From NCBI GenBank assembly GCA_033558025.1, contig JAUCEF010000001.1, positions 4,588,001 through 4,652,000 of the forward strand: DNA of 64,000 nucleotides. Direction: 5' to 3'. The notes beneath the pieces were generated by a model. The model had not been told where the DNA came from. It made no database searches and was given only the letters and a program-made list of their open reading frames with translations. This document shows, piece after piece, positions 16,212 through 60,375 of this stretch; position 1 is the first letter of the stretch; each line of letters opens with the position of its first letter. Source of the stretch: Phytophthora sp. 'mugwort' (lineage: Eukaryota; Oomycota; Peronosporomycetes; Peronosporales; Peronosporaceae). A program made the position numbers and the translations under genes.

Positions 16212-16443
16212 ATGGTACCATTGCGTACGCTCTAGAGTGGGGTAGGGGTACTCTAGATGCCATTTTATGCACAGATTGAGCGGACGCAGAGGACACGCGC
16301 TTATGTGCAGTGTGGATATACCTTATTGTTTCAAATAGAAGTCCTCTTGCTTCTTGGGACAAGACACAAAGAAACATGAGCGTTGCCTTCTTCGCGGACG
16401 GGATTCATACTTTGCGCCGACAGCTGCATCATCTACGCGGAAC

Positions 16444-17196
16444 ATGGCGATCAAGCAGATAAATGCCATCATCAAGAAGCTGGATTGGAAGGAAGTCGAA
16501 GCTACTTTGTTCTCTACTGAGCGCGATGACGCGGATCCTGGATTTGAAGTTTGCGAAGCCTCGTTAGAAGACTGGGAGAGATATGTCAAGTCGGAGAACC
16601 AAGCACTTGTATCGAGGGCAATGGCATTTGAAGATGGTAAAATCTACATTGTCGAACTCCCATCTGGTGTCTACGATGCTTTTTGCGCCATGCTGGTCTT
16701 TGATGTGCTGACTGCAACTGGTAGTGGTCGTCAGCACCTGACGTCGCGTGGATCGAGCTACCTGGAAAGCTTGAGAAGCTCGAGCCCGATTGCAGTTTCG
16801 GTCCAGTTCGTGGTATCGGTGCCAATCGACCAGTCGGCCTGACGTGGAACGAATACCACACATCGAAGGTGGAAGTGGAGTCTCACGAGGATGGCCCTAT
16901 TTGGATCGAAAAGCGGATTAATGAAGGCAATTTCCTGGCGTCGAATACATTCTCTGCATTCGTCTAGCACAAGCGCTGCGGGTTCGTCAGTACAAACTCT
17001 ACACGGTGGATAATCGAGCAAATTACTTCCGCGCATGGATCCGATAGCTATCGTCGATCTGAGAAATGTGACTTTCACTTCGCGCCGTCTGTTAGGCCTC
17101 GTTGAACGAGGTCGCACTCCCCAAGGCTTCTCTCGGCCCAATGTAGTGATCGATTTATTTCCGCTCGTAGAGAGGCTAATTCAGGAAAACCAGTGA
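16444..17196 (+). pseudogene. Oomycete multicopy protein, possible PD-(D/E)XK/Uma2-like fold
   Basis: Reading starts at MAIKQINAIIKKLDWKEVEA and runs to about 16740, shifts frame to WIELPGKLEKLEPDCSFGP and NRPVGLTWNEYHTSKVEVE, then shifts again to GVEYILCIRLAQALRVRQYK and ends at TGA 17196. The EPDxSFGP ... KVEVE pair resembles the Asp and Glu-x-Lys-type core of Uma2-like nuclease-fold families, which oomycetes carry in many copies; that link is inference. With at least two frameshifts it is not translated intact. A mirror copy with the same lesions lies at 40602-41354. Confidence 0.55.
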
Positions 17197-17274
17197 AGAC
17201 ATGTTCGATTCTCAATCAAAGTCGTCAACGATTAGCGTAGCAATGGGCGGCATGAAATGCATAAGAACCCTTAT

Positions 17275-17592
17275 GGTTGAATCGCTTGTTGGTTTGAGGG
17301 CAAATGCCGAAGTGAGGTTGATCTTAAGCTCTACAATCTACACGCTGTCCTCCTTTTCCTACTCTTCCCTTGGGCTTCCTTGTCGCATCTCATCGTCCTG
17401 GTTACCTCCCCGCCAGCTTGACTTGATTTCAGTATGCCATGACTTCCATGTGAGATATCAGCCGATCGCATCATGGCAAGGAACGTGCCGCTCGTGCCTT
17501 GGTCGTCCTATCCGACGTAGGTCATCACTGCATAAGTCCTCGTCGTCCGCTAGGTCGTCTTCTGCGCAAACTGGCGGCGCTCCATGTCAACA
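17275..17592 (-). repeat. LTR (3' LTR of dead copia)
   Basis: 318 bp, ends with TCAACA; the first base of the terminal TG has mutated to G. Shares GCTTGTTGGTTTGAGGGC with the partner LTR. Confidence 0.9.
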
Positions 17593-17606
17593 CTCCCGCT
17601 CGCCGT

Positions 17607-20600
17607 CTAGTGTTGCGCGGGCTTGGTGCGGATACCGCTCGCCCCGATCAGAAACTTGAGCCGCTTCGTCCCCCGTACCTTTGTGAGCATGTCCGCGAGC
17701 TGGTCCTCTGTCCCCACGTAGTCGACCTTGATGGTGTTCGTCGCCACATTCTCGCGGATGAAATGGTTGCGGATGTCGACGTGCTTCGTGCGCGCGTTGT
17801 ATCCCGCGTTGCTTGCCAACACGATCGCACCTTGGTTGCCATCCCAAACTTGTGTCGCTCCCACTTGCTCATGATCCAGGTCCTTAAGCATGGCGCGGGT
17901 CCACAGCATCTCCTGCGTACAGAAGCTTAGAGCCATGTACTCCGCCTCCGCCGAGCTCAGCGCCACCATGCGCTGGTACTTCGACTTGAAGATGGTCGGC
18001 ACGCCGCCGATCATGATCATGATCCCTAATACTGAACGGCGGTCGTCCAGGTTGCTGCCCCAGTCCGCGTCCGTGTACGCCTCCAACTTGATCTTGCCGT
18101 CATTTCCGTTGTAGACGATACCAAAGTCCTTCGTCGTCTTCAGGTAGCGAAGCACATGAATGGCAGCCTTCCAGTGTTGTTGCCCGGGGTTCTCCAAGAA
18201 CCGCGACAGCTGCGTGACGATGTACGCCACGTCCGGGCGCGTGCAGGTCGCGATCTACAACAAGCAACCGATCAACGACCTGTATGGCTTGGTCCGCATG
18301 TCCTCGCGTTCTACATCTGTGGTCGGCGACTGCATCTTCGTCAGCTTCATGCCTGACTCGCACGGGTTCACCACCGCTTTCGCGTTTTGTTGGTTGAACC
18401 GACTCGCGACATTATCGATGTAGCGCGTCTGCTTGATCATCAGCGTGCCTGCCGTCCGGTCGTGGTCGACCTCCATGCCGAGGATGAACTTGACCTCGCC
18501 CAATTCCTTCATCTTGAACGCACTCTTCAACGCCGTCTTGACCTCGTTGATCTCCTCGTTGGTCTTGCGGCGATGGTCATGTCGTCCACATACAAGCAAA
18601 CGTACACGTACTTGTTCTTCGAGCCCTTGACGTAGACGCACTGGTCTGCCCCACAACTGCGGAAGCCAAATTTCATGAACACTGCATGGATCGTCTGGTG
18701 CCATGCGCTCGCAGCCTGTTTGAGGTCGTAGATCGCCTTGTCCAACTTACACATCATGTTCTCCGCGTTCGTGATGCCATACGGCACCTCCATGTACACT
18801 TGTTCCTTCAGGTCACTGTTCAGGGACGCCATGTCAGCATCCAGCTGCTCGGTGACGTAGGCCTTCGCGAGCACCACCGATAGCACGACCCTGATCAAGT
18901 TCATGTTGGCAACGGGTGAGTAGGTCTCGAAGAAGTCCACGCCGAACTTCTGTTTGAAGCCCTTCGCCACTAGCCGGACCTTGTACCGCACGACTCGGTC
19001 GCGCTCGTTCCGCTTCTTAGCGAATACCCATCGACACCCAATCGGTCGGGCATCAGTGGTCCGTCGAACCAGGGTCCATGAGACGTCGTCCGCGTTGGCC
19101 TTCAGCATTGCCTTGATCCACTCCGACGCCTCGTTGCTCTTCATGGCCTGCTGGTACGTGGTTGGCGCATCGTCAGCGTTTCCCACACTGGCAGCGTAAA
19201 CACGTACTGCTTCGGCGAGAAGACCGTCTTCGTCAACTCGAGACCTCTTAGGCGATGGTGGCCAGAAGTGGTCGTCCTTGTCCGGGTCATCCTCGTCGTT
19301 CACCTTGTACTCGTCTGCACCGCTACCATCGTCTCCGAGAGCAAGTACTTGGTCACGTGCGCATCGGACTCGCTCGGGTTCCGAGTGGAAAACAAGGTTG
19401 TCACTGAAGGCTACCCCTGGCGTCCCTTGAAATGTTGCCAGCTCACGCCTCGTCGAGTCATTCGGCTCGGCCTCGGGCATCTCCGTGTCTTCCTCATGGT
19501 TCTCCTGCACCGATTCCATCGGCGCTTCAGCAGCGGACTGCTGCTCTTGTTCGTGCTGCACAACTTCATCGACGTCCTCCGTTGAATGGACGACCGTCGT
19601 ACTTTCCGTCGGCGTCGAGTCGTAAAAGCCGTTCACCTCGCGCTATCGAGCTTCATCGACCTGGTCACATTCACCTTGTTCGACTCCAAGTCGTACACGC
19701 GGTAACCCTTCGAGTTCTCAGCGTACCCCAAGAGCATACACTTGAAGCTCTTCGGATTCAACTTGGTACGCTTTTCTTTGTCGAGGTGGGTGTACCCGAC
19801 CGAGCCGAAGACACGCAAGTGGTCCAGCCGCGGCTTGTCCTTGAACGTCAGCTATTATGGCGTCATGATCGAGTGTGTACTGGCCGTTGACCAGTTGATC
19901 AGGAAACCGACGTACTGACCGCCTCGGCCCACCACATCGTCGAGATGCCCTTGTAATACAACATGCTCCGGGCCTTCTCCATGATCGTGCGGTTCATGCG
20001 CTCCGCTACACCATTCTGCTGCGCTATGGCACGGTTTTCTGGTGCGCGATTCCGTCCAGCGCGCACATCTTGTCCATCTCCTTGTTCATGAACTCGATGC
20101 CGTTATCTGAGTGCAGGCACTGGATGCGCTCCCCCCATTGGTTCTCGTACAAGTTCATGAACGTCTTGAACTTGATGGGACCTCGCTCTTCTTGGTGATG
20201 AAGTACGCCACCATACACTTGGAGTAGTCATCGAGAAACGTGAGCACGTACCGGGCTCCGCCCTTCGACTTCGTCTTCATGGGACCCATGACGTCCGTGT
20301 GCACCAGATGCAACACCTTCATCGCCTTCGACAGTGATCGAGATGGGAAGTGCGCGACCGTCTGCTTGCCCTTCATGCAGCCCCCGCACAACGTCATGGA
20401 CTTGTGGTTCACCACGGGCATGACGGTGGTGGCGCGCTGCGTCTTCGTCAGAGCGTCCTCGTTCAAGTGACCTATGCGCGCGTGCCAAAACTCCCACTCA
20501 CTGTCGACCCCGGCGTACTCCACGTAGTGCGCCATGTCCTTATCGCAGTCGAGCACGTAGGCCTTGCCGACCTTCTTGTTCAACACGATCGCCTTCGACT

Positions 20601-21719: not shown

Positions 21720-22033
21720 TGTTGAGTCGCTTGTTGGTTTGAGGGCAAATGCCGAAGTGAGATTGATCTTTAGCTCTACAATCTACACGCTGTCCTCCTT
21801 TTCCTACTGCTTTCCTTGGGCTTGTCGCATCTCATCATCCTGATTACTCCCCGCCAGCTTGAGTTGATTTCAGTATGCCATGACTTCCATGTGAGATACC
21901 AGCCAATCGCATCATGGCAAGGAACGTGCCGCTCGTGCCTTGGTCGTCCTGTCCGACGCAGGTCATCACTGCATGAGTCCCCCTCGTCCCTTAGGTCGTC
22001 CTCTGCGCACACTGGCGGCGCTCCATATTAACA
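21720..22033 (-). repeat. LTR (5' LTR of dead copia)
   Basis: 314 bp, begins TGTTGAGTCGC and ends TTAACA (mutated from TCAACA). Next to it on the internal side is GGTTAACAGCCGC (minus strand), the likely primer-binding region; the same bases follow the 5' LTR of the intact copy. Confidence 0.88.
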
Positions 22034-22239
22034 CTTATAATACGAACAAACCACTTCCGATTGCAAGCAGAACGCGCGACCACCGAAGAAGACACAAAAA
22101 TACCGTGAGATACGATCAGATTGCAATCACTCCGCATTAGGTGAGCGAAGATCAAGTACCGTATGAGACTGAAAGTACCGTGAACAACACATTATCGAAT
22201 TAACTATCGACAGTGACAATTGACCAATAATTTAATCAA
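22034..22239. other. Spacer next to copia target duplication
   Basis: Begins with the CTTAT target duplicate. No gene seen. Confidence 0.4.
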
Positions 22240-25546: not shown

Positions 25547-25830
25547 TGTTGAGATGCTCTTGTTGGTTTGAGGGCAAATGCCGAAGTGAGTTCTATTGTC
25601 TCCTTACTCTTGCTAACCTGCATCTACTTACCTTGTGTCCCAGGAGTAAATCGGAATATCGACCAATCCGATCCATCCACGTGTTCTCAACTGCCCCCCC
25701 TTTTTCAGCACAACGCCATTGCGTGAGCTCGCATGCATTGCGTCATCGCTGCATGTGCCCGCACGCATCGTGTCATCACTGCGCATGGGCATGACGTCAC
25801 CGCTTCGCCTATACGGCGCACACATCAACA
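25547..25830 (-). repeat. 3' LTR of intact copia
   Basis: 284 bp; same sequence as 29972-30255. The polyprotein stop at 25809 falls inside this LTR. Confidence 0.95.
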
Positions 25831-28800
25831 CTCCCACTCGCCGCATGCTGAGCGGTCTTGGTTCGGACGCCGCTCCCTGCGAGCAAGAACTGCAGTCTCT
25901 TCGTCCCGACCGCCTTCGTGAGCATGTCCGCCAGCTGACCTTCCGTCCCAACGTAGTCCACCGTGATGATGTCCCGGGCCACGTTCTCGCGGATGAAGTG
26001 GTGCCTGATGTCGACGTGCTTGGTCCGCGCATTGTAGCCGGCGTTGCTTGCCAGTGCAATGGCACCTTGGTTGTCCTCCCAGACTTGCGTCGCTCCCACT
26101 TGCTCATGACCCAGGTCCTTGAGCATCGCACGGGTCCACAGCACCTCCTGCGTGCACAGGCTTAACGCCATGTACTCCGCCTCCGCCGAGCTCAGCGCCA
26201 CCGTGCGCTGGTACTTGGACTTGAAAACGACCGGCGCGCCGCCAATCATGATCATGATCCCGGATACCGAGCGGCGGTCGTCCAGATTGCTGCCCCAGTC
26301 CGCGTCCGTGTACGCCTCCAACACGACCTTGCCGTCGTTGCCGCTGTAGATGACCCCGAAGTCCTTCGTCGTCTTCAGGTAGCGGAGCACACGAATGGCT
26401 GCCTTCCAGTGCTGCTGCCCAGGGTTCTCCAAGAACCGCGACAGCTGCGTGACGATATATGCCTCGTCCGGGCGCGTGCAGGTCGTGATGTACAACAAGC
26501 ATCCGATCAAAGACCTGTACGGCTTGGACCTCATGTCCTCGCGCTCAGCGTTCGTGGTCGGCGATTGCATCTTCGTCAACTTCATGCCGGACTCGCACGG
26601 GTTCACCACCGCTTTCGCGTCTTGCTGGTTGAACCGGTTCACGACGTCGTCGATGTAGCGCGTCTGCCTGATCATCAACGTGCCGGCCGTGTGGTCATGG
26701 TCCACCTCCATACCGAGGATGAACTTGACCTCGCCGAGCTCCTTCATCTTAAACGCGCTCTTCAACGCCATCTTGACCTCGTCAATCTCTTTGTTGGTCT
26801 TGGCAGCGATGATCATGTCGTCCACGTACAAGCAGACGTACACGTAGTTGTCCTTGGAGCCCTTCACGTAGACGCACTGGTCTGCCCCGCAGCTGCGGAA
26901 GCCGATCTTCATAAACACGGCGTGGATCGTCTGATGCCACGCGCTCGCGGCCTGCTTGAGGCCGTAGATCGCCTTGTCCAGCTTGCACATCATGTTCTCC
27001 GCGTTCGTGATGCCGTACGGCACCTCCATGAACACTTGCTCCTTCAGATCACTGTTCAGGAACGCTGTGTCCACGTCCAGCTGCTCTGTGACGTAGGCCT
27101 TCGCCACCACCACCGACAGCACAACCCTGATCGAGTTCATGTTGGCGACGGGCGAGTACGTCTCGAAGAAGTCCACGCCGAACTTCTGCTTGAAGCCCTT
27201 CGCCACCAACCGGGCCTTGTACCGCACAACTCGGCCGTGCTCGTTCCGCTTCTTAGCGAACACCCATCGACACCCAATCGGCCGGGCGCCAGACGTCCGT
27301 CGAACCAGCGTCCACGAGCCATTGTCCGCGTGCGCCTTCAACTCGGAGTTCATCGCCTTGATCCACTCCGACGCCTCGTTGCTCTTCATGGCCTGCTGGT
27401 ACGTGGTAGGCGCGTCGTCAGCTTCTCCCACACTGGCAGCGTAAGCCAGTACCGCTTCGGCGAGCAGTCCGTCCTCGTCGACTCGAGGTCGCTTAGGCGA
27501 CGGCGGCCAGAAGTGGTCGTCGTTGTCCGGGTCGTCCTCGTCGTTCACCTTGTACTCGTCTGCAACGTCTTGAAGAGCAAGGACTGAGTCACGAGGGCGT
27601 CGGACTCGTTCGGGTTCCGGGTGGAATACAAGATTGTCACTGAAGGCTGCCCCTGGCGTCCTTCGGTATCTTGCCAGCTCATGCCTCGTCAACTCGTCCG
27701 ACTCAGCCTCGGGCATCTCCGTGTCTTCCTCATGGCTCTCCTCCACCGATCCCATCGGCTCTTCAGTAGCGGGTTGGCGCTCTTGCTCGTGCTGCACGAC
27801 GTCATCGACGTCCTCCGTCGAATGGATGACCGTCGTGCTCTCCGTCGGCGCCGAGTCGTAGATGCCGTCTACCTCGCGCTCGTCGAGCTTCATCGACCTT
27901 GTCACCTTCACCTTGTTCGACTCCAAGTCGTACACGCGGTAGCCCTTCGAGTTCTCGGCGTACCCCAAGAACATGCACTTGAAGCTCTTCGGCTCCAACT
28001 TGGTGCGCTTTGCCTTGTCGACGTGAGCGTACCCGACCGAGCCGAACACGCGCAAGTGGTCCAGTCGCGGCTTGCCCCTGAACGCCAACTCGTACGGCGT
28101 CCTGCTCGAGTGCGTAATGGTCGTGGACCGGTTAATCAGGTACACCGACGTACTGACCGCCTCGGCCCACCACATCGTTGAGATAGCCTTGTAATACAAC
28201 ATGCTGCGGGCCTTCTCCATGATCGTGCGGTTCATGCGCTCCGCCACGCCGTTCTGCTGCGGGCTGTAAGGCACGGTCTTCTGGTGAACGATCCCGTTCA
28301 ACGCGCACAACCTGTCCATCTCCTTGTTGACGAACTCCGTGCCGTTGTCCGAGCGCAGGCACTTGATGCGCTCTCCCCACTGGTTCTCGTACAAGTTCAT
28401 GAACGTCTTGAACTTGACGGGCACCTCACTCTTCTTGGTGATGAAGTACGCCACCACGTACTTGGAGTAGTCATCCACAAACGTGAGCACGTACCGGGCC
28501 CCGCCTTTAGACTTCGTCTTCATGGGCCCCATGACGTCCGTGTGCACCAACTGCAACACCTTCGTCGTCTTCGACAGCGATCGAGACGGGAAGTGCGCGA
28601 CCGTCTGTTTGCCCTTCATGCAGCCCCCGCACAGCGTCATGGACTTGCGGTCCAACGTGGGCATGCCAGTGGTGGCGTTCTGCGTCTTCGCCAGCGCGTC
28701 CTTGTTCAAGTGGCCCATGCGCGCATGCCACAACTCCCACTCACTGTCGACTCCGGCGTACTCCACGTAGTGCGCCATGTCCTTCTCGCAGTCGAGCACG

Positions 28801-29927
28801 TAGGCCTTGCCGACCTTCTTGCCCAACGCGATCGCCTTGGACTTGTTCCAGATCGTACACGACTTCTTCTGAAACTCCACGCTCATGCCGCGCTCCGCCA
28901 GCCTGCTGACAGACAACAGCTGTCGGTCCAGCCCGGGGATGTACATCACATCGACCATCTTAATGCGCGTGCCGTCGATGCCCGTCAGGCGCACCGACCC
29001 CGTTCCCACCACCCGGATCTTCTTGCCGTCCGCGATGGTCACCTCGACGTCCGAGTCGAGGTCCTTGTACTCAAACAAGTCGTTGCGGTGAGGCGTCATG
29101 TGCGCCGTCGCACCGCTGTCGATCAGCCACCCAGCCGACCGACTCTTCCCAACGGCGAAGACCGCGTCGTCGTCGTTGTTGCCCGCGTTCGGGTCCGGGC
29201 AGTCCCGCTTCATGTGGCCCATCTGGCCGCAGTTGAAGCACTTGCCCTTGAAACCGCCGTTCTTCCTTGAACCGAAGGCCTTGCTGCCCTTGCCGCCCCT
29301 GAAGGTTTTCGCGCCTTTGAACTTACTGCTGTTCGCAGTAGCCTTTAGCGCGCGCTCAGTGCCTTCCTTCTTGTCGAGGCGCTCGTACTCCTTGAGTAGC
29401 TTCTCCTTCACCTCGATCAACGTGAAGTCTTTCACGTTCTCCACGATCGAGCAGATCAACTCGTACTCCGTGGGCAGACTGCTCAGCAGGATGACCAGCT
29501 GACGAGCCTCGTCCAGCGGTTCTCCGAGCGTCTGCAGACCCACGATGAGCTCGTCGAAGTCGTCCAGGTGCTTGGCCATGGTCACGCCGCCCTCCATCTT
29601 GAACTCGTGGAGGCGACGGGTCATCGTCACCCGGTTGTGCATGGTCGTCCGGTTGTAGAAGTCGCGCAACGTGTTCCAGGCCATGATGGCCGACGTCGCC
29701 GAGCGGATCTTCGTGTGGTGCTCCACCGCCACACCTTGGGCGATGAGCCCGAGCGCCTTCATGTCATTGAGCAGCCACGCCTCCGTCATCTCCGACGGGT
29801 CCTTCACCAACTGCACGTGCGCCAACAGCCCCTTCCTCGCCAGCGTCATCCGCATGGCGAACTCCCAGTGGAAGTAGTTGTCGCTTCCCAGGATGACTTC
29901 AGCTTTCTTGGCGGACGTGGTGGTCAT
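25809..29927 (-). CDS. Copia Gag-Pol polyprotein, intact
   Basis: 1372 residues from MTTTSAKKAEV (29927); the same frame is open 25 codons further upstream into the LTR, but the ATG at 29927 is used because the dead copy starts at the same point. Gag (1-~225) with a zinc knuckle at about 230-243 (CFNCGQMGHMKRDC). Protease with LIDSGATAH at about 268-276. Integrase with HHCC zinc site (H401, H406, C433, C436) and catalytic D464, D527 and E563 (35-residue spacing). Reverse transcriptase with YVCLYVDDMIIA. RNase H with DADWGSNLDDRRS and SSAEAEYMALS. Gene order PR-INT-RT-RH is Ty1/copia. No frameshift separates gag from pol. All key residues are present, so the product is predicted functional. 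Confidence 0.95.
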   Translation of the reverse strand: MTTTSAKKAEVILGSDNYFHWEFAMRMTLARKGLLAHVQLVKDPSEMTEAWLLNDMKALGLIAQGVAVEHHTKIRSATSAIMAWNTLRDFYNRTTMHNRVTMTRRLHEFKMEGGVTMAKHLDDFDELIVGLQTLGEPLDEARQLVILLSSLPTEYELICSIVENVKDFTLIEVKEKLLKEYERLDKKEGTERALKATANSSKFKGAKTFRGGKGSKAFGSRKNGGFKGKCFNCGQMGHMKRDCPDPNAGNNDDDAVFAVGKSRSAGWLIDSGATAHMTPHRNDLFEYKDLDSDVEVTIADGKKIRVVGTGSVRLTGIDGTRIKMVDVMYIPGLDRQLLSVSRLAERGMSVEFQKKSCTIWNKSKAIALGKKVGKAYVLDCEKDMAHYVEYAGVDSEWELWHARMGHLNKDALAKTQNATTGMPTLDRKSMTLCGGCMKGKQTVAHFPSRSLSKTTKVLQLVHTDVMGPMKTKSKGGARYVLTFVDDYSKYVVAYFITKKSEVPVKFKTFMNLYENQWGERIKCLRSDNGTEFVNKEMDRLCALNGIVHQKTVPYSPQQNGVAERMNRTIMEKARSMLYYKAISTMWWAEAVSTSVYLINRSTTITHSSRTPYELAFRGKPRLDHLRVFGSVGYAHVDKAKRTKLEPKSFKCMFLGYAENSKGYRVYDLESNKVKVTRSMKLDEREVDGIYDSAPTESTTVIHSTEDVDDVVQHEQERQPATEEPMGSVEESHEEDTEMPEAESDELTRHELARYRRTPGAAFSDNLVFHPEPERVRRPRDSVLALQDVADEYKVNDEDDPDNDDHFWPPSPKRPRVDEDGLLAEAVLAYAASVGEADDAPTTYQQAMKSNEASEWIKAMNSELKAHADNGSWTLVRRTSGARPIGCRWVFAKKRNEHGRVVRYKARLVAKGFKQKFGVDFFETYSPVANMNSIRVVLSVVVAKAYVTEQLDVDTAFLNSDLKEQVFMEVPYGITNAENMMCKLDKAIYGLKQAASAWHQTIHAVFMKIGFRSCGADQCVYVKGSKDNYVYVCLYVDDMIIAAKTNKEIDEVKMALKSAFKMKELGEVKFILGMEVDHDHTAGTLMIRQTRYIDDVVNRFNQQDAKAVVNPCESGMKLTKMQSPTTNAEREDMRSKPYRSLIGCLLYITTCTRPDEAYIVTQLSRFLENPGQQHWKAAIRVLRYLKTTKDFGVIYSGNDGKVVLEAYTDADWGSNLDDRRSVSGIMIMIGGAPVVFKSKYQRTVALSSAEAEYMALSLCTQEVLWTRAMLKDLGHEQVGATQVWEDNQGAIALASNAGYNARTKHVDIRHHFIRENVARDIITVDYVGTEGQLADMLTKAVGTKRLQFLLAGSGVRTKTAQHAASGSVDVCAV

Positions 29928-29971
29928 GGCGGTACTGAAGCTTGGTCTTGAGCGTCTTGCGGCTGTTAACC

Positions 29972-30255
29972 TGTTGAGATGCTCTTGTTGGTTTGAGGGC
30001 AAATGCCGAAGTGAGTTCTATTGTCTCCTTACTCTTGCTAACCTGCATCTACTTACCTTGTGTCCCAGGAGTAAATCGGAATATCGACCAATCCGATCCA
30101 TCCACGTGTTCTCAACTGCCCCCCCTTTTTCAGCACAACGCCATTGCGTGAGCTCGCATGCATTGCGTCATCGCTGCATGTGCCCGCACGCATCGTGTCA
30201 TCACTGCGCATGGGCATGACGTCACCGCTTCGCCTATACGGCGCACACATCAACA
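29972..30255 (-). repeat. 5' LTR of intact copia
   Basis: 284 bp; same sequence as 25547-25830. Flanked on the outside by ACACC. Confidence 0.95.
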
Positions 30256-37042: not shown

Positions 37043-37264
37043 ATGTCCGTGATAAACATCTAGCCAGCCAAGCTTCAGCGCCTGATCAGCAACTTGCACA
37101 AATTAGGAGCTGATGCAAATTTTGGCAACTATGAACGTCTAGGTATTCAATGGTTCGATTACGATATTGATGCTCTAATTCACAATAGTCGCTTGATGCT
37201 AAGCCTCAAGCATAGCGTAGTAAAAGAGGACGATCTTCCGGATATTCAAGACTTTTGCATATGT
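37043..37264 (+). pseudogene. Viral-block gene cut by inverted-repeat arm
   Basis: ATATATAG at 37017-37024 and an ATG at 37043 (MSVINI, then a stop), followed by an open frame KLGADANFGNYERLGIQWFD ... VVKEDDLPDIQDFCIC. At 37265 the sequence turns into copia integrase in the same frame, producing a 178-codon chimeric ORF (37094-37630). The viral gene is truncated and its function unknown. Confidence 0.5.
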
Positions 37265-40200
37265 GAGTACGCCGGGGTCGACAGTGAGTGGGAGTTTTGG
37301 CACGCGCGCATAGGTCACTTGAACGAGGACGCTCTGACGAAGACGCAGCGCGCCACCACCGTCATGCCCGTGGTGAACCACAAGTCCATGACGTTGTGCG
37401 GGGGTTGCATGAAGGGCAAGCAGACGGTCGCGCACTTCCCATCTCGATCACTGTCGAAGGCGATGAAGGTGTTGCATCTGGTGCACACGGACGTCATGGG
37501 TCCCATGAAGACGAAGTCGAAGGGCGGAGCCCGGTACGTGCTCACGTTTCTCGATGACTACTCCAAGTATATGGTGGCGTACTTCATCACCAAGAAGAGC
37601 GAGGTCCCATCAAGTTCAAGACGTCCATGAACTTGTACGAGAACCAATGGGGGGAGCGCATCCAGTGCCTGCACTCAGATAACGGCATCGAGTTCATGAA
37701 CAAGGAGATGGACAAGATGTGCGCGCTGGACGGAATCGCGCACCAGAAAACCGTGCCATAGCGCAGCAGAATGGTGTAGCGGAGCGCATGAACCGCACGA
37801 TCATGGAGAAGGCCCGGAGCATGTTGTATTACAAGGGCATCTCGACGATGTGGTGGGCCGAGGCGGTCAGTACGTCGGTTTACCTGATCAACTGGTCAAC
37901 GGCCAGTACACACTCGATCATGACGCCATAATAGCTGACGTTCAAGGACAAGCCGCGGCTGGACCACTTGCGTGTCTTCGGCTCGGTCGGGTACACCCAC
38001 CTCGACAAAGAAAAGCGTACCAAGTTGAATCCGAAGAGCTTCAAGTGTATGCTCTTGGGGTACGCTGAGAACTCGAAGGGTTACCGCGTGTACGACTTGG
38101 AGTCGAACAAGGTGAATGTGACCAGGTCGATGAAGCTCGATAGCGCGAGGTGAACGGCTTTTACGACTCGACGCCGACGGAAAGTACGACGGTCGTCCAT
38201 TCAACGGAGGACGTCGATGAAGTTGTGCAGCACGAACAAGAGCAGCAGTCCGCTGCTGAAGCGCCGATGGAATCGGTGCAGGAGAACCATGAGGAAGACA
38301 CGGAGATGCCCGAGGCCGAGCCGAATGACTCGACGAGGCGTGAGCTGGCAACATTTCAAGGGACGCCAGGGGTAGCCTTCAGTGACAACCTTGTTTTCCA
38401 CTCGGAACCCGAGCGAGTCCGATGCGCACGTGACCAAGTACTTGCTCTCGGAGACGATGGTAGCGGTGCAGACGAGTACAAGGTGAACGACGAGGATGAC
38501 CCGGACAAGGACGACCACTTCTGGCCACCATCGCCTAAGAGGTCTCGAGTTGACGAAGACGGTCTTCTCGCCGAAGCAGTACGTGTTTACGCTGCCAGTG
38601 TGGGAAACGCTGACGATGCGCCAACCACGTACCAGCAGGCCATGAAGAGCAACGAGGCGTCGGAGTGGATCAAGGCAATGCTGAAGGCCCACGCGGACGA
38701 CGTCTCATGGACCCTGGTTCGACGGACCACTGATGCCCGACCGATTGGGTGTCGATGGGTATTCGCTAAGAAGCGGAACGAGCGCGACCGAGTCGTGCGG
38801 TACAAGGTCCGGCTAGTGGCGAAGGGCTTCAAACAGAAGTTCGGCGTGGACTTCTTCGAGACCTACTCACCCGTTGCCAACATGAACTTGATCAGGGTCG
38901 TGCTATCGGTGGTGCTCGCGAAGGCCTACGTCACCGAGCAGCTGGATGCTGACATGGCGTCCCTGAACAGTGACCTGAAGGAACAAGTGTACATGGAGGT
39001 GCCGTATGGCATCACGAACGCGGAGAACATGATGTGTAAGTTGGACAAGGCGATCTACGACCTCAAACAGGCTGCGAGCGCATGGCACCAGACGATCCAT
39101 GCAGTGTTCATGAAATTTGGCTTCCGCAGTTGTGGGGCAGACCAGTGCGTCTACGTCAAGGGCTCGAAGAACAAGTACGTGTACGTTTGCTTGTATGTGG
39201 ACGACATGACCATCGCCGCAAGACCAACGAGGAGATCAACGAGGTCAAGACGGCGTTGAAGAGTGCGTTCAAGATGAAGGAATTGGGCGAGGTCAAGTTC
39301 ATCCTCGGCATGGAGGTCGACCACGACCGGACGGCAGGCACGCTGATGATCAGCAGACGCGCTACATCGATGATGTCGCGAGTCGGTTCAACCAACAAGA
39401 CGCGAAAGCGGTGGTGAACCCGTGCGAGTCAGGCATGAAGCTGACGAAGATGCAGTCGCCGACCACAGATGTAGAACGCGAGGACATGCGGACCAAGCCA
39501 TACAGGTCGTTGATCGGTTGCTTGTTGTAGATCGCGACCTGCACGCGCCCGGACGTGGCGTACATCGTCACGCAGCTGTCGCGGTTCTTGGAGAACCCCG
39601 GGCAACAACACTGGAAGGCTGCCATTCATGTGCTTCGCTACCTGAAGACGACGAAGGACTTTGGTATCGTCTACAACGGAAATGACGGCAAGATCAAGTT
39701 GGAGGCGTACACGGATGCGGACTGGGGCAGCAACCTGGACGACCGCCGTTCAGTATTAGGGATCATGATCATGATCGGCGGCGTGCCGACCATCTTCAAG
39801 TCGAAGTACCAGCGCATGGTGGCGCTGAGCTCGGCGGAGGCGGAGTACATGGCTCTAAGCTTCTGTACGCAGGAGATGCTGTGGACCCGCGCCATGCTTA
39901 AGGACCTGGATCATGAGCAAGTGGGAGCGACACAAGTTTGGGATGGCAACCAAGGTGCGATCGTGTTGGCAAGCAACGCGGGATACAACGCGCGCACGAA
40001 GCACGTCGACATCCGCAACCATTTCATCCGCGAGAATGTGGCGACGAACACCATCAAGGTCGACTACGTGGGGACAGAGGACCAGCTCGCGGACATGCTC
40101 GCGGACATGCTCACAAAGGTACGGGGGACGAAGCGGCTCAAGTTTCTGATCGGGGCGAGCGGTATCCGCACCAAGCCCGCGCAACATTAGACGGCGAGCG

Positions 40201-40523
40201 GGAGTGTTGACATGGAGCGCCGCCAGTGTGCGCAGAAGACGACCTAGCGGACGACGAGGACTTATGCAGTGATGACCTACGTCGGATAGGACGACCAAGG
40301 CACGAGCGGCACGTTCCTTGCCATGATGCGATCGGCTGATATCTCACATGGAAGTCATGGCATACTGAAATCAAGTCAAGCTGGCGGGGAGGTAATCAGG
40401 ACGATGAGATGCGACAAGGAAGCCCAAGGGAAGCAGTAGGAAAAGGAGGACAGCGTGTAGATTGTAGAGCTTAAGATCAACCTCACTTCGGCATTTGCCC
40501 TCAAACCAACAAGCGATTCAACC
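37265..40523 (+). mobile_element. Truncated duplicate of dead copia element
   Basis: Begins within integrase (YAGVDSEWEFWHARIGHLNE) and continues through RT (38150-39259) and RNase H (39555-40190) to a single LTR at 40205-40523. Gag, protease and the 5' LTR are absent. Frameshifts are the same as in the left-arm copy, plus a private 1 bp deletion near 39351. It arose by DNA duplication and not by retrotransposition. Confidence 0.93.
40205..40523 (+). repeat. LTR of truncated copia copy
   Basis: 319 bp, TGTTGACATGG to GATTCAACC; mirror of 17275-17592. Confidence 0.9.
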
Positions 40524-40601
40524 ATAAGGGTTCTTATGCATTTCATGCCGCCCATTGCTACGCTAATCGTTGACGACTTTGATTGAGAATCGAACATGTC
40601 T

Positions 40602-41354
40602 TCACTGGTTTTCCTGAATTAGCCTCTCTACGAGCGGAAATAAATCGATCACTACATTGGGCCGAGAGAAGCCTTGGGGAGTGCGACCTCGTTCAACGAG
40701 GCCTAACAGACGGCGCGAAGTGAAAGTCACATTTCTCAGATCGACGATAGCTATCGGATCCATGCGCGGAAGTAATTTGCTCGATTATCCACCGTGTAGA
40801 GTTTGTACTGACGAACCCGCAGCGCTTGTGCTAGACGAATGCAGAGAATGTATTCGACGCCAGGAAATTGCCTTCATTAATCCGCTTTTCGATCCAAATA
40901 GGGCCATCCTCGTGAGACTCCACTTCCACCTTCGATGTGTGGTATTCGTTCCACGTCAGGCCGACTGGTCGATTGGCACCGATACCACGAACTGGACCGA
41001 AACTGCAATCGGGCTCGAGCTTCTCAAGCTTTCCAGGTAGCTCGATCCACGCGACGTCAGGTGCTGACGACCACTACCAGTTGCAGTCAGCACATCAAAG
41101 ACCAGCATGGCGCAAAAAGCATCGTAGACACCAGATGGGAGTTCGACAATGTAGATTTTACCGTCTTCAAATGCCATTGCCCTCGATACAAGTGCTTGGT
41201 TCTCCGACTTGACATATCTCTCCCAGTCTTCTAACGAGGCTTCGCAAACTTCAAATCCAGGATCCGCGTCATCGCGCTCAGTAGAGAACAAAGTAGCTTC
41301 GACTTCCTTCCAATCCAGCTTCTTGATGATGGCATTTATCTGCTTGATCGCCAT
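40602..41354 (-). pseudogene. Second copy of decayed Uma2-like gene
   Basis: Mirror of 16444-17196 with the same frameshifts and essentially the same bases; only isolated substitutions (for example one near 41161). See the left-arm entry for the domain reading. Confidence 0.55.
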
Positions 41355-41583
41355 GTTCCGCGTAGATGATGCAGCTGTCGGCGCAAAGTATGAATCCCGT
41401 CCGCGAAGAAGGCAACGCTCATGTTTCTTTGTGTCTTGTCCCAAGAAGCAAGAGGACTTCTATTTGAAACAATAAGGTATATCCACACTGCACATAAGCG
41501 CGTGTCCTCTGCGTCCGCTCAATCTGTGCATAAAATGGCATCTAGAGTACCCCTAAACACTTTAGTGTACGCAATGGTACCAT

Positions 41584-42089: not shown

Positions 42090-43640
42090 TTACTGCAAAT
42101 CCTCCTGGATGTCGCGCAGAATGTCGAGCAGCTCGGGTGCATCCGGTCGTACGTCCGGATCGGCGTCCAAGCAGCGGTTGGCGAGCGCCTTAATCTGCTC
42201 GGGGCAATTGTCTTGGAACGACGGCCGAAGCGCTGATCGAATCACCATCTGGATAATCTTCATGCCCTGGAGCTTTTTGCCCGAGTTGTCGCGTTTGTCC
42301 GAGTATGGCACCTCACACATATCCATCTCGGACATGACAATGCCAAAAGAGTAAATGTCGGCCTTCTCCGTGTACTTCTTGCCCATGAGCACCTCTGGGG
42401 CCGTCCAGTAGATAGTGCCAACGCCTGCGGTCATAGTCTCCTCTACAGAACGTTTTCGGCTGATCCCAAAGTCACTCAACTTGGCACGATACTTGTTGTC
42501 GAGCAGAATGTTCTTCGACTTGAGGTCCCGGTGAATAACCTTCGGATTCAACGAGTGGAGGTATACCAGCGCCTCCGCGATGTCCTCAGCCAGCCACACC
42601 TTGTGGTCGGGCCAGTTGAGCTTGCCCTTGCGGCGCTCCAAGTAGCCGTAGAGGTCGCCCTTGGCCATAAATTCTGTCACTGCACACAGGTCCTGTTTGT
42701 CGCTCCACGACACGCCGATAAAGCCCACAATCTTTGGGTGTTTCAGAAGTGCCATGAGCTTAATCTCCGCTCCAAAACACTCGATCTCCTTCACATCATG
42801 CTTCTTCTCATCTAGAATCTTCTTGACCGCCACCTGTGTATTTTCCAACTGAGCCAGCCATACCTCTCCAAAGGCTCCTTTAGAGATGGAACGCGTGAAG
42901 TAGAGCGAGTCATATGGTATCCAGCTCTCCTCGAACTCCGGGTCTTCTTCCAGTTCCGCCATCACCTTCTCTGCTGCATCCTGAGTACGCGCGATAACGG
43001 CCGGATCTGTCTGTCTCCTTTGCATTCCCTCCACACTGGACTGCATGGACGACACTTGGCTCTGCTGCAGCTCCATCATTGAAAGACCTGGGCCCTGGTC
43101 CTCGTGTGGCTCAAGCATAGGGACCTCAGGAGGGGGAGGCGGCGGGAACGACTGCTGTGGCTGATACTGGCTATGGTACTCGGACTGGTACTGCGGCTGA
43201 TGTTGATACTGCAACTGCTGCTGCTGACGAGTATATGTCGGAGCTCCGTTGGCCGGCCACTGCGGTGGGCGTTCTACGCTTTGCTGCTGCGACTGAAACG
43301 GATGGGGCACCTTTTTGCTCTTGGAGTTGCTACTGTAGCCCGTAGAGTCCATGCGACGCTCGAAGGCCGTATTGTCATGCGAGGTGACGCGACTGATACC
43401 GGAGCGCGTCGTAGTCGATGGTAAACCGTAGCCGCGGTCGTCCCCACGCTTGCGGTTTTGCTTGCGCTTCCACACGAAAAAGGCCACGATACCGAAGAGC
43501 ACGACGATCACGGAGATGACGATGTAGATGATGGTAGATCCCGAGCTTGGATTCGTGGACTCTGGGTCCGTAGCCGCGACCGAAGTGATGACCAGCGGTA
43601 GAGCGGAAAGCGCCACGCTGCGCGGCGAAAACACTTTCAT
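42090..43640 (-). CDS. TKL-type receptor-like protein kinase, copy 2
   Basis: 516 residues from MKVFSPRSVALSALPLVITS, chosen over an ATG 33 codons upstream because it starts a clean signal peptide. A short Ser/Thr/Pro ectodomain (~20 residues) is followed by one TM helix (TIIYIVISVIVVLFGIVAFF) and a Lys/Arg stop-transfer. A Gln/Tyr/Pro-rich linker precedes the kinase domain at about 240-510: SKGAFGEVW, VAVKKILDEKK, HRDLKSKNILL, SDFGISR, WTAPEVLMGKKYTEKAD. The kinase domain is highly similar to copy 1, including C-lobe YSDKRDNSGKKLQGMKI. Single exon. The tiny ectodomain makes ligand binding unlikely without a partner. The two copies are a tandem pair separated by the 25 kb viral/TE block. Confidence 0.92.
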   Translation of the reverse strand: MKVFSPRSVALSALPLVITSVAATDPESTNPSSGSTIIYIVISVIVVLFGIVAFFVWKRKQNRKRGDDRGYGLPSTTTRSGISRVTSHDNTAFERRMDSTGYSSNSKSKKVPHPFQSQQQSVERPPQWPANGAPTYTRQQQQLQYQHQPQYQSEYHSQYQPQQSFPPPPPPEVPMLEPHEDQGPGLSMMELQQSQVSSMQSSVEGMQRRQTDPAVIARTQDAAEKVMAELEEDPEFEESWIPYDSLYFTRSISKGAFGEVWLAQLENTQVAVKKILDEKKHDVKEIECFGAEIKLMALLKHPKIVGFIGVSWSDKQDLCAVTEFMAKGDLYGYLERRKGKLNWPDHKVWLAEDIAEALVYLHSLNPKVIHRDLKSKNILLDNKYRAKLSDFGISRKRSVEETMTAGVGTIYWTAPEVLMGKKYTEKADIYSFGIVMSEMDMCEVPYSDKRDNSGKKLQGMKIIQMVIRSALRPSFQDNCPEQIKALANRCLDADPDVRPDAPELLDILRDIQEDLQ

Positions 43641-56108: not shown

Positions 56109-57296
56109 ATGCCCAGCGACAACGAGCAACAGGAGGACGAGGCACTTGCGAACACGGAGGAGCTGCACCCGAAGCGCACAACGTCGTTCGCCGCGCGCCG
56201 AAAGAAGAAGCCGACGGTCCGTTGTCTGCTCTTTCGGCTCCATTATACCAGCCACACGCGAGGAATGACGCGGCATGCCACCGCCGTCACTGATACGTGT
56301 GACAAGGCGAGCAAGTTCACTGACGTACGGTGTGGTGCGATTCCGGACTGTAGGTGCAGTATGACCTCGCGACGCGCATCGCGATGGAGCGCGAAAAGAC
56401 CAAGTATTGGGCACGGATCCTGCTGCTATTCCCGCTCGTGCCCGTGTGTCTGGCGCTCACGACCATGGTCTTTGGCGGCGTGATCATTAACGTAGCCACC
56501 AACGAATGCAACGCCGACCTCATGAGTGCGCCTGTATTTTTATGTATTTAGTCTGCTTCCCCCCAGGGGTGCAGGAAGCTCATTGATGGGTGATGTGCTT
56601 GCTGGTTGTTGATGTCCGTTGCTGTTGAGACTAGGATTCATGCAGGGCGCGGTGGTGTTGAGCCACGTGCTTGTGTGTTTTTACACGTACTGCTGGATGG
56701 GGCCGTGTCCGATCAAGAGCCTGCGCACCGTGCGCGTATTTTACCTCGTGTACGGCGTCGTGTGCGTGGTCTGGTGGGGGCTCTACGGCACGCTGCAGGC
56801 CGTCATAGCCACGAGCTCGGGCTTCGAGTCGTGTCTGTCCATGTCGACGACGCTGTATATCTTCTCGCAATACGAGGTAGCCTCATTTTGGGTCGTGTTC
56901 ATTGCGGCGGTTGTCTTCTTTGTGAACGAGAAGACGGCGCGAATGCGGCAGGACAAGCTGGGCCAGTGGACGCGCAAGAAGGAGGACGCCAAGCGCGCCA
57001 ATCAACAGAAAGAGCAAGAGAACCGCAACCGCATGCTTCAAGATGCGCAGGACGAGGCGCGCAGGATCGAGGAGGAGCAGCGCCAGAAGATCGCGGCTGA
57101 CCAGCAGCAGCTCTACGGTAGCGACGACGAAGACGGCGGCGGAGAGCACGACGATTACGAGCAAGACCCCGACGGTGTCAACGAATATGGCGGCACTGCT
57201 AATGGTGCTGGAAACGTCCCAAACAACAACCAGCAAGAGGACGAAGAAGATGAAGAGGGAGAGGAGGAAGTTTTCCTTGCAGAGAAAGCAGTGTAG
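56109..57296 (+). CDS. Four-TM membrane protein with acidic coiled-coil tail
   Basis: Exons roughly 56109-56218, 56357-56524 and 56627-57296. Reads MPSDNEQQEDEALANTEELH, a basic RRKKKP stretch, then four hydrophobic segments (ILLLFPLVPVCLALTTMVFG; VVLSHVLVCFYTYCW; VFYLVYGVVCVVWWGLYGTL; FWVVFIAAVVFFVNE). A charged coiled coil (KKEDAKRANQQKEQENRNRM ...) and a very acidic C-terminus (EEDEEDEEGEEEV-like) follow. No family recognised; it may be a small oomycete-specific membrane protein. The proposed first donor (GTCCGT) is weak. Exon 3 joins as MRFMQGAVVL in phase. Confidence 0.7.
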
Positions 57297-57463: not shown

Positions 57464-60375
57464 ATGAGCAGCGCCAACGGACAGACGATCACTGTGTGCG
57501 GCAACATATTCCGGTGCGTGACTCGATACCCTTTAAAGCCCACCGTAATTTTCCGTTGCTTAGGCTGAACTTCTGATGATTTATGCCCTTATCTGCGCAG
57601 CCTGGTAGAGACGATCGGCCGCGGCTCCTACGGCACAGTACGGCGGCAACACTTGATAGCGCATGTGTGTATGAACGAATTAAAGCGAACTATTACGTTT
57701 TGGATCGACAATTTAGGTTCACAAGGCCATCAATTTGTCATCGGGGGCGGCTGTGGCCGTCAAAATGATCGGTAAGGACAAGCTGCGACGGCCGCACGAG
57801 CGCCAGAGCATCGAGAAGGAGATCGAGACCATGCGCGTGGCTGTGGAGCAGTTTGAGAACGGCCACCCGCATATCGTGCGCCTGCTATGTACCAAGGAGT
57901 CGCAGCACCACATCTTCATCGTGCAGGTCGGTAAAGCTGGAGAGAAGAAAGGAGGGAATTGGTTTGCTGATGTGGGGTTCACTTTTGTGGTTTGCAGGAG
58001 TATTGTGCTGGTGGAGATATTGCCCAGCTGATGAAGGTGAATCACGGACTGACAGAAAATCAGGCAAGGCTTTATATGTCGCAGCTGGGTGAGTGGCAGA
58101 AGACTCGAGCTGTGGTTATGGGATGGGCGTGACTGAGAAAGCTTTGGTGGTTTGCAGCGTCAGGATTGCAGTTTCTCCGCTCGCAGAATGTGGTGCACCG
58201 TGATCTGAAGCCTGCCAACTTGCTGCTGTCGTCGCGAAACTTAGCGACGGCCAAGCTGAAAATTGGTGAGTATATTGGTTCTGCTTTGTAAAATTGTGAT
58301 ACATAGGGATATTTGCTGATAATTGCACTCTGATTTGTGACTTTGTGTAGCGGACTTTGGTTTTGCACGTGAGTTAGAGTCGGAGATGATGGCTGAGAGT
58401 GTTGTGGGCTCGCCGCTTTACATGGCCCCGGAGCTCTTAGAGTACAAAAGTTACGATGCCAAAGCTGACTTGTGGTCGGTTGGCATCATTCTGTACGAGA
58501 TGCTGGCCAACGAGCACCCGTTCCTCGTAGTGGACAAGGTTCACGCAACTAACCACCTGGGGTTGCGCCGCAACATTTACCGGTACTTTGAGCGCTACGG
58601 TCACGTTCGTCTGCCGAATAAGGTTAAGGTGTCTCCCGAGTGCAAGCAGCTGGTGGAAGCGCTGTTGCGGGTAGATCCACGCAAGCGAATCTCTTTTGAG
58701 GACTACTTCCGTGCTCCGTTTTTGTTGCCGCCAGCTCCGTCGGACACTGAAGTTGTCACCGACAATGCAGGTTTGGAGAGTTCGGAGACGAAGCAACTTC
58801 TCGTTGCTGAAAAACAACCCGAATATGGTACGTTATTGAGACTTGTGAGGGGTTTTTCCTAATGAGTGCTTTTGCAAGTGAATTACTTACATAGCTGGTC
58901 ATGGTACAGAGGATTGGGCTACCTTCAGTGACGAGTATGTGATGGTAGAGAATGAGTATGAGGACGTGGGCCGAAAGGTTCTTGACAGCCAGGACCTGAA
59001 CGTGGATTTGGAACACAAGGTAATAACGATGAGACGAAGCAAACGATTCAGGGGTGAAATCTTAGGATTCCAAGACGTTTAACAACTTTCTCGTTGTTCC
59101 TTCTATGATATTAACGCAGGCAAAGCACCACATGAAAGATCACGTACCTGTCGCAGACTCAGGCTCCACCATTGTCGATGAAGGCATTGAGATTAGGGAC
59201 GTCGTGATCGACACATCTTCTCCTCGAAACGGGAAACTTGCAGTTGAACCCGTGGAAACCCCAGTGCCGACTGAATTAGAGGGTGAAGCAAAAATGCTTG
59301 CACGCGAAGTGATTCCAGCTGCGAAGAATGACAATTGGCTGGCTGGTGAGCGCCGTCAGTGGGTGACCGACGACAACCGGCTTGAAGAACTGCTGGGTAT
59401 TTGCTACAAGAGTTTTTCATGTGGCAGTGTGGCACTGTTTGTCCCCACACCGTTTGGTGACTACATTGCGTTCCACGAAGGATGCCCGCACTATTATCTG
59501 TCGGAGGAATCGATCGCCGCTTCTAAGAAAGATGACAGGTGCGCTAGACAATAGTACTATGTATGACATGACAGTTTTGCAGGAGTGGACTCATTTTGTA
59601 TTTCCTATTGTTTTATTCGTTCATAGAAACCCTCCCTACGTTCTCGGTCATATTGTATACATTGAAGACCATGAAACGACTGATGTAAGACTGATGGGCT
59701 ACCTGCTTTTTCTAAATAAGTCTGACGAGTTGTGCGTTTTTATTTTGTATTTGTTTCACAGAAATTGAACCCATATTGCCTACGCGAAGGAACCAAGTAT
59801 CACGTGGTGTCTGTCACTCCGTTGGCGACCTCATCCCATGATGCTAACGGCAGTGCGGGGACGGCAGATAGCTCATCTGCTTCTGATGAGTTGCCACTCT
59901 CTCAGGTTCTCACTGGTCGTACAGTGGCAAGTGATGTGGAGGAAAACGGTCTGCATGAAGTGGTGAGTGAGCAGTTTTCTGCTGAGGTTTCCTACGGTCC
60001 GACCGAACACCAGCGGATATCATTCCGTAGCTTCCAAATCAGTTCACTGGCATTGTTTTTCCTGAAGGGAGGAAAATTACCGTATGTGGCTTTCAACGAA
60101 GGGGCTCCAAACTACTATCTAGCAAACGAGTCGATTCAAGCAGCGATTTTGGGTGTGGGCAACGATCGCACACCGCCCGCATACATCTGTGGTGAAATCA
60201 TTTTCATCGATACTTTCCAGGCGCTAGAGGTAGAGTTCCTATTTTGTAACATTATTCTAGGTGTTTGTGTACTGACTGACACCTTTTATATTTTTTGCAG
60301 GATTTTAATCCATACCGCCTTCCGTACGGAACGCGATTCCACGTTGTGACGGTGGCAAACCCGAAGAGGACGTAG
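57464..60375 (+). CDS. ATG1: Atg1/ULK kinase fused to tandem Atg11/FIP200 Claw-like domains
   Basis: About 11 exons with small introns; first exons 57464-57513, 57601-57637 and 57717-about 57926. Kinase: IGRGSYGTVHKA loop, VAVKMIGKDKL, EYCAGGDIAQLM, NVVHRDLKPANLLLSS, ADFGFARELE (the ADFGFAR form typical of Atg1/ULK), VGSPLYMAPELLEY. After the kinase comes EDWATFSDEYVMVENEYEDV, an ULK/ATG1-like DEYVMV segment. C-terminal domain 1 (about 59370-59830): VALFVPTPFGDYIAFHEGCP, HYYLSEESI, YVLGHIVYIED, NPYCLREGTKYHVVSVTPL. Domain 2 (about 60020-60375): LALFFLKGGKLPYVAFNEGA, NYYLANESI, YICGEIIFIDTF, NPYRLPYGTRFHVVTVANP. Both follow the strand order of the Claw domain ending Atg11/FIP200, which binds cargo receptors. 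ATG 57464 is the first that leads in phase into the glycine loop. The early P-loop exon and intron phases agree. Confidence 0.87.

Follow-up and report, generated by a model that had tools for sequence, protein, structure and literature searches.

The window, that is, the whole 64,000-nucleotide stretch of Phytophthora sp. 'mugwort' DNA analyzed here, carries a gene predicted to encode a protein kinase of the ULK/Atg1 type followed by two copies of the Claw domain of Atg11/FIP200 (Table 1). An earlier note on this DNA had placed a ULK-family kinase and two Claw copies on a single gene model, and we reproduced its span exactly. Splicing at the GT..AG sites yields a predicted fusion protein of 705 amino acids plus a stop. 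Full-length models from other oomycetes are similar in size, and the closest full-length database relative, Phytophthora P0005, is 91.5% identical. On sequence grounds, this combination of a kinase with a double Claw is not due to chance.

Table 1. The fusion gene and the features of its predicted protein, in window positions
Feature	Position	Strand	Remarks
Fusion gene, whole coding region	57464..60375	+	11 exons; every intron GT..AG; in frame
Exons 1-6	57464-57513, 57601-57637, 57717-57926, 57998-58088, 58158-58265, 58351-58827	+	
Exons 7-11	58895-59019, 59120-59538, 59627-59684, 59762-60229, 60301-60375	+	
Kinase domain, ULK/Atg1-type	57512..58724	+	residues 17-290, exons 1-6
Intron in the Ala codon preceding DFG	58266..58350	+	place and phase as in an intron of the C12 Atg1 paralogue
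SDEYVMV, AIM/LIR-like motif	58927..58947	+	residues 336-342; also fits the published FIR consensus
Claw 1 (PF10377)	59399..59818	+	residues 460-544, exons 8-10
Claw 2 (PF10377)	60011..60360	+	residues 609-701, exons 10-11

Elsewhere in the window, we observed a 4.3-kb inverted repeat (16212-20530 and 37257-41583, 99.2% identical) with a third copy at 25825-30015 (86-88%). Short direct repeats at 17276-17594 and 21721-22035 (92%) resemble the LTRs of retroelements, and two more protein kinase domains, both on the minus strand, flank the inverted repeat (14198-14965 and 42126-42893). The gene immediately upstream of the fusion gene (56121-57296) likely encodes a membrane protein, as judged by eye. 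In Lagenidium giganteum (P0023) and Phytophthora cactorum (P0003), gene models join this upstream gene to the kinase; these joined models are probably annotation errors, and they indicate that the gene order is conserved there.

Kinase, linker motif, and Claw domains

The kinase matched PF00069 over residues 17-290 with 230.6 bits (Pfam), and at the level of motifs VAVK, HRDLKPANLL, DFGFAR, and APE were all found. Among the best 60 of 2,781 PDB matches, the top ones were ULK3 (177.7 bits), ULK1 (158.5 bits), and ULK2 (155.3 bits), followed by SIK3 (143.3 bits). Pairwise comparison likewise gave a higher score for ULK3 (183 bits) than for ULK1 (159 bits), with plant, green-algal, and oomycete Atg1-type sequences reaching 201-233 bits. 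The activation loop reads AESVVGSP, as against AATLCGSP in ULK1 and AETLCGSP in Atg1b, and the Ser in place of the Atg1b Thr is found in the fusion kinase and in the three oomycete relatives compared. In the C-lobe, residues 231-245 form a ATNHLGLRRNIYRYF stretch; a stretch of similar type occurs in the metagenomic protein P0062 (ATNQVALRGNIMAYF), and none was seen by eye in Atg1b.

In canonical Atg1/ULK kinases, C-terminal tandem MIT domains bind Atg13. A Pfam search of the fusion protein at E<=1 found neither PF12063 (MIT1, which we take to be DUF3543) nor PF21127, and Pfam also gave no match to the ATG17-like region PF04108. Because MIT domains were undetected, we regard the fusion protein as an Atg1/ULK paralogue by its kinase and not as a canonical Atg1. 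In a kinase tree of 22 sequences, the seven Claw-bearing oomycete kinases formed a single clade (98/96). The tree does not fix the order of this clade relative to ULK1, ULK3, and Atg1; P0062, ULK1, ULK3, P0132, and the outgroup sit on long branches, and two of the long ones meet.

SDEYVMV, which lies between the kinase and Claw 1, is a putative Atg8-binding motif. By script, 34 of the 36 proteins with two Claws have a motif of this Atg8-interacting-like type; in P0032, one of the two exceptions, the motif lies near the start, before the script filter, and P0025, the other, has no match. The YVMV core occupies a similar place after the kinase as the LIR of ULK1, published as 357-FVMV-360 (PMC7297954), and its counterpart in Atg1b is GEYVLV.

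The Claw family, PF10377, was matched by two stretches of the fusion protein with a total of 112.4 bits (Pfam, cut-off 22). Taken by itself, Claw 1 scored 62.0 bits (E 8.2e-17) and Claw 2 scored 57.5 bits (E 2e-15) against the same cut-off, and the Claw of the genome's own Atg11 scored 83.3 bits. Profile comparison of Claw 1 with Claw 2 gave an E of 1.8e-25 at 42% identity. Identities to the Aphanomyces (P0030) and Saprolegnia (P0035) proteins are 80% and 77% for Claw 2, 74% and 69% for Claw 1, and 76% and 75% for the kinase, so the Claws are conserved about as tightly as the kinase. A Claw tree, from which the doubtful first Claw of P0062 was left out, does not fix the order of Claw 1, Claw 2, and the Atg11 Claw.

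The earlier note had likened both C-terminal domains to the FIP200 Claw, and structural comparison bore this out for Claw 2. A single-sequence PDB search with Claw 2 retrieved human RB1CC1/FIP200 Claw chains (6DCE, E 1.3e-5) over nearly the full length. The same search retrieved no FIP200 chain for Claw 1, nor for the genome's own Atg11 Claw. We also built Claw profiles from seven of the nine proteins in the FIP200 Claw alignment, and with the seven-row Claw 1 profile the FIP200 Claw came first, weakly (E 0.043). An AlphaFold2 model, made from 25 rows, was obtained for P0042, a Hyaloperonospora arabidopsidis piece that contains the ortholog of Claw 2; all 24 of its 24 Foldseek matches at E<=0.001 were FIP200 Claws. 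Overall this model has a mean pLDDT of 52.0 and a pTM of 0.35, with block means of 62-82 over Claw residues 111-190, the part that alone bears on the fold. Going by this ortholog model, and not by the fusion protein's own chain, Claw 2 is predicted to have the FIP200-type Claw fold. For Claw 1, which belongs to the Claw family by sequence, the corresponding prediction (P0032, both Claws without the kinase, 18 rows) had a mean pLDDT of 40.7 and was not used.

We compared the binding pocket on the FIP200 alignment of nine proteins, using the FIP200 residues named in PMC7946963, where the available text assigns the binding of FIR peptides to K1569, R1573, and R1584. Both Claws keep the hydrophobic type of pocket (F1574 is replaced by Tyr, V1576 by Leu, and F1582 by Tyr/Phe), and in both the basic K1569, R1573, and R1584 are replaced by Asp/Glu, Pro, and Val. 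As the Claw of the genome's own Atg11 carries the same changes at these three basic positions, the altered pocket is not a special trait of the fusion. In Albugo P0027, Claw 1 retains Lys at 1569, so this position varies among oomycetes. Position 1573 is Pro in every aligned row except FIP200, and position 1584 is Val/Ile in the oomycete rows and Glu in P0062.

The FIP200 Claw is described as a dimer formed via its beta0 strand (PMC6477179, PMC7946963), with D1500 belonging to a salt bridge of the dimer (PMC7946963). ICYKSF and ISFRSF, from the two Claws of the fusion protein, align with FIP200 1496-1501 (IAIRDF), near the published interface. This segment is partly kept in both, with Lys/Arg for Arg1499 and Ser for Asp1500. 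In the available text of PMC6477179, dimerization of the Claw is argued to give avidity rather than ULK1 signaling.

Spread of the fusion and the rest of the initiation machinery

A kinase and PF10377 occur together in 38 of 41 homologous proteins; the remaining three are P0032 (PF10377 only), P0038 (kinase only among the listed domains), and P0041 (Atg11-like). Our own Claw profile gave two separate Claw matches, some of them partial, in 35 of these 38 models, and a single match in P0037, P0039, and P0040 (models of 402-473 amino acids). The named carriers are Phytophthora, downy mildews, Pythium and its relatives, Albugo, and Saprolegniales. No stop interrupts P0059, a metagenomic frame with 50% identity to the fusion protein, between the kinase DFG region and the opening residues of Claw 1, a span that includes the Atg8-like motif. 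Three other frames, P0038, P0039, and P0044, reach past the kinase and far into Claw 1, and contain intron-like inserts. Some models are shorter: those of P. infestans (P0061, 370 amino acids) and A. astaci (P0060, partial) end after the kinase, and H. arabidopsidis P0042 contains only the end of the protein. No stretch of the fusion locus convincingly matches the end of P0061, so we take this model to be faulty. Close to where exon 8 begins there is an in-frame ATG. The two Claw matches in most kinase-PF10377 models and the P0059 frame support a single predicted transcript for kinase and Claws.

A profile of the linker and Claws from five oomycetes, with scoring restricted to the 7,992 candidates richest in shared words, gave 55 matches, which were oomycetes and metagenomic pieces resembling oomycete exons by eye. 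In a search with the Saprolegnia P0035 kinase, PF10377 was present in 36 of the best 120 of 3,619 matches; these 36 were named oomycetes, the close copies P0011 and P0017, and P0062. P0062 is a metagenomic protein of 809 amino acids in which a kinase 44% identical to the fusion kinase is accompanied by an FVLV motif and a single clear PF10377 domain; in the kinase tree it joins the sampled oomycete clade at 99/99, on a long branch. Pfam reported two PF10377 stretches in P0062 at E<=1, our Claw 2 profile found one Claw in it, and pieces of the first copy scored 1.1 and 0.4 bits with the Claw 1 profile; the first Claw of P0062 is doubtful. If the source of P0062 is not an oomycete, the fusion would predate the oomycetes.

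The genome also encodes a separate Atg1 paralogue of 898 amino acids (C12), with MIT2 at 34.8 bits, over its cut-off, and MIT1 at 14.7 bits, under its cut-off. PF10377 was found at two places in the genome only, the fusion gene and C13. At C13, tblastn with the Atg11-like P0041 gave matches, in order, to the N-terminal part, the middle part, and the Claw, and the unspliced frame matched the ATG17-like PF04108 at 41.7 bits, just below the cut-off of 43. Atg13 was located on C14 and Atg101 on C9. The genome kinase search returned no second near-identical copy of the fusion kinase, other frames being at most 49% identical. The earlier note had supposed that the fusion stands in for a separate kinase and scaffold and so shortens the initiation pathway. 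With an Atg11/FIP200-like gene bearing its own Claw, and with Atg1, Atg13, and Atg101 alongside, that claim does not follow; judged from these genes, the fusion gene is an extra Atg1 paralogue, not a shortened pathway.

Possible mode of action and relation to known systems

The reading we favor, at a probability of roughly 45%, is that the fusion protein would be a receptor-docked, Atg13-independent ULK kinase of selective autophagy, activated by clustering and working in parallel to the canonical complex. It would act beside the canonical Atg1b-Atg13-Atg101-Atg11 set, with the hydrophobic pockets of its Claws docking the kinase directly on cargo receptors, without Atg13. Kinase domains would be brought together by clustered receptors or by contacts between Claws of the same or of different molecules, and their proximity would favor autophosphorylation of the activation loop. 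YVMV would then keep the kinase on the Atg8 of the growing membrane. We infer docking on receptors, independence from Atg13, activation by clustering, and binding to Atg8 from the predicted protein. The absence of an MIT region together with the two Claws suggests that the kinase may go directly to cargo. In S. pombe, dimerized Atg1 bypasses Atg11, and the piece of Atg11 that dimerizes Atg1 lies outside its Claw (PMC7511232, available text). Receptor docking and clustering are favored because of the missing MIT region, the two Claws, the partly kept dimer segment, and this bypass by Atg1 dimerization. The lost basic rim speaks against a FIP200 mode of receptor reading. Further points that weigh against the favored reading are the Ser at position 1500, the location of the S. 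pombe dimerizing piece outside the Claw, the avidity argument of PMC6477179, and the models P0061 and P0060 that end after the kinase. Bivalent receptor binding by the two Claws, another suggestion of the earlier note, is possible, with the FIP200 residues that read an acidic or phosphorylated FIR not kept.

The strongest of the other explanations, though unlikely, is that the Claws serve only in structure or substrate docking: they would bring about kinase dimers or attach the kinase to the Atg11 scaffold or to a membrane factor, and would not bind receptors. Loss of the FIP200 rim fits this, as does the activation of S. pombe Atg1 by dimerization alone (PMC7511232). However, the F1574, V1576, and F1582 positions are aromatic or aliphatic in both Claws, and the rim is no fair test of receptor binding here because the separate oomycete Atg11 Claw lacks it too.

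Somewhat more doubtful is a self-contained switch, in which SDEYVMV would dock into one of the protein's own Claws and hold the kinase off until receptors or Atg8 displace it. The motif is conserved along with the Claws and fits, besides the LIR consensus, the FIR consensus, [DEST][DEST][FWYILV]xx[ILV]; p62 and optineurin have published motifs that are bound by Claw and Atg8 alike (PMC7615515). The FIR consensus is loose, though, as it has three matches within the fusion protein; a similar motif occurs in ULK1, which is without Claws, and as GEYVLV in Atg1b; and the basic rim of the pocket is absent.

A bolder extension, to which we give a similarly low weight, would be a ULK class older than the oomycetes in which tandem Claws form an intramolecular pseudo-dimer resembling the FIP200 Claw dimer and are gated in cis by the dual LIR/FIR-type motif of the linker. 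The kinase would be turned on by the binding or clustering of receptors, without Atg13 or FIP200. P0062, with its kinase, FVLV, and one clear and one doubtful Claw, would be the witness to this class outside the oomycetes. If real, the class would be a natural counterpart, existing beside the canonical set, of the forced Atg1 dimerization that bypasses Atg11 in S. pombe.

An autophagy role is itself not certain, as the top PDB match of the kinase is ULK3 and not ULK1. A ULK3-like kinase acting outside autophagy would agree with this match, with the higher pairwise score of ULK3, and with a kinase tree that does not separate ULK1, ULK3, and Atg1 relative to the Claw-bearing clade. We nevertheless consider it improbable: Atg1-type sequences score above ULK3 in the same comparison, the Claw and the Atg8-like motif are autophagy modules elsewhere, and the intron is common to oomycete Atg1b. 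An artefact of annotation or splicing, with a kinase gene and an adjoining Claw gene on separate transcripts, could draw on P0061, P0042, and the in-frame ATG mentioned above, but is highly improbable given the two Claw matches in most kinase-PF10377 models, the four frames that join kinase to Claw 1, and the unmatched end of P0061.

The fusion protein allows a direct question, whether a ULK kinase can be switched on by receptor contact and clustering alone, in the absence of the Atg13/FIP200 scaffold, and it offers a single natural chain in which Claw specificity, Claw dimerization, and kinase activation can be tested together. Its retention from Saprolegniales to Phytophthora suggests that the oomycetes, many of which parasitize plants or animals, have an autophagy branch of their own.

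Compared with canonical Atg1/ULK1, the fusion protein has in common the kinase domain, the catalytic motifs, and an AIM/LIR-type motif after the kinase, but it has two Claws in place of a detectable MIT region, and Ser rather than Thr in the activation loop. With FIP200/RB1CC1 and Atg11 it shares PF10377, the Claw fold (for Claw 2, on the ortholog model), and the hydrophobic type of pocket, whereas it carries two Claws behind a kinase, has no ATG17-like match, and has lost the basic rim.

The nearest known system is Atg1a of Phytophthora sojae, in which DUF3543 'is replaced by an Atg11 domain in Atg1a', according to a 2017 survey of P. sojae, P. capsici, H. parasitica, and Py. ultimum (PMC5431975). 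The kinase-Atg11 domain architecture was therefore already known, and the earlier note was mistaken in thinking it undescribed. The available text of PMC5431975 also reports that P. sojae has both Atg1a and Atg1b, that oomycete Atg11 bears an extra Atg17 domain, and that PsAtg1a transcripts rise more than 2-fold at infection stages; two ULK kinases have been counted in P. infestans (PMC3019232, available text). Within the literature searched, which comprised sources other than subscription papers and bioRxiv, we found no further description of the fusion besides PMC5431975 and no account of two Claws in one kinase or of a mechanism, and the available part of PMC10913709 does not mention oomycete Atg1a. 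The fusion protein is most likely this published oomycete Atg1a, matched by domain make-up and not by sequence: both have a kinase and an Atg11 domain without DUF3543, and each has beside it an Atg1b and an Atg11 that carries an Atg17 region, in the present genome a match just below the cut-off. The published Atg1a is given 'an Atg11 domain', not two, and the available text leaves the Claw fold, an Atg8-binding motif, the pocket, and a mechanism unmentioned. What is added here to the published Atg1a is the doubling of the Claw, its fold, the Atg8-like motif, the altered pocket, and the spread over the oomycetes.
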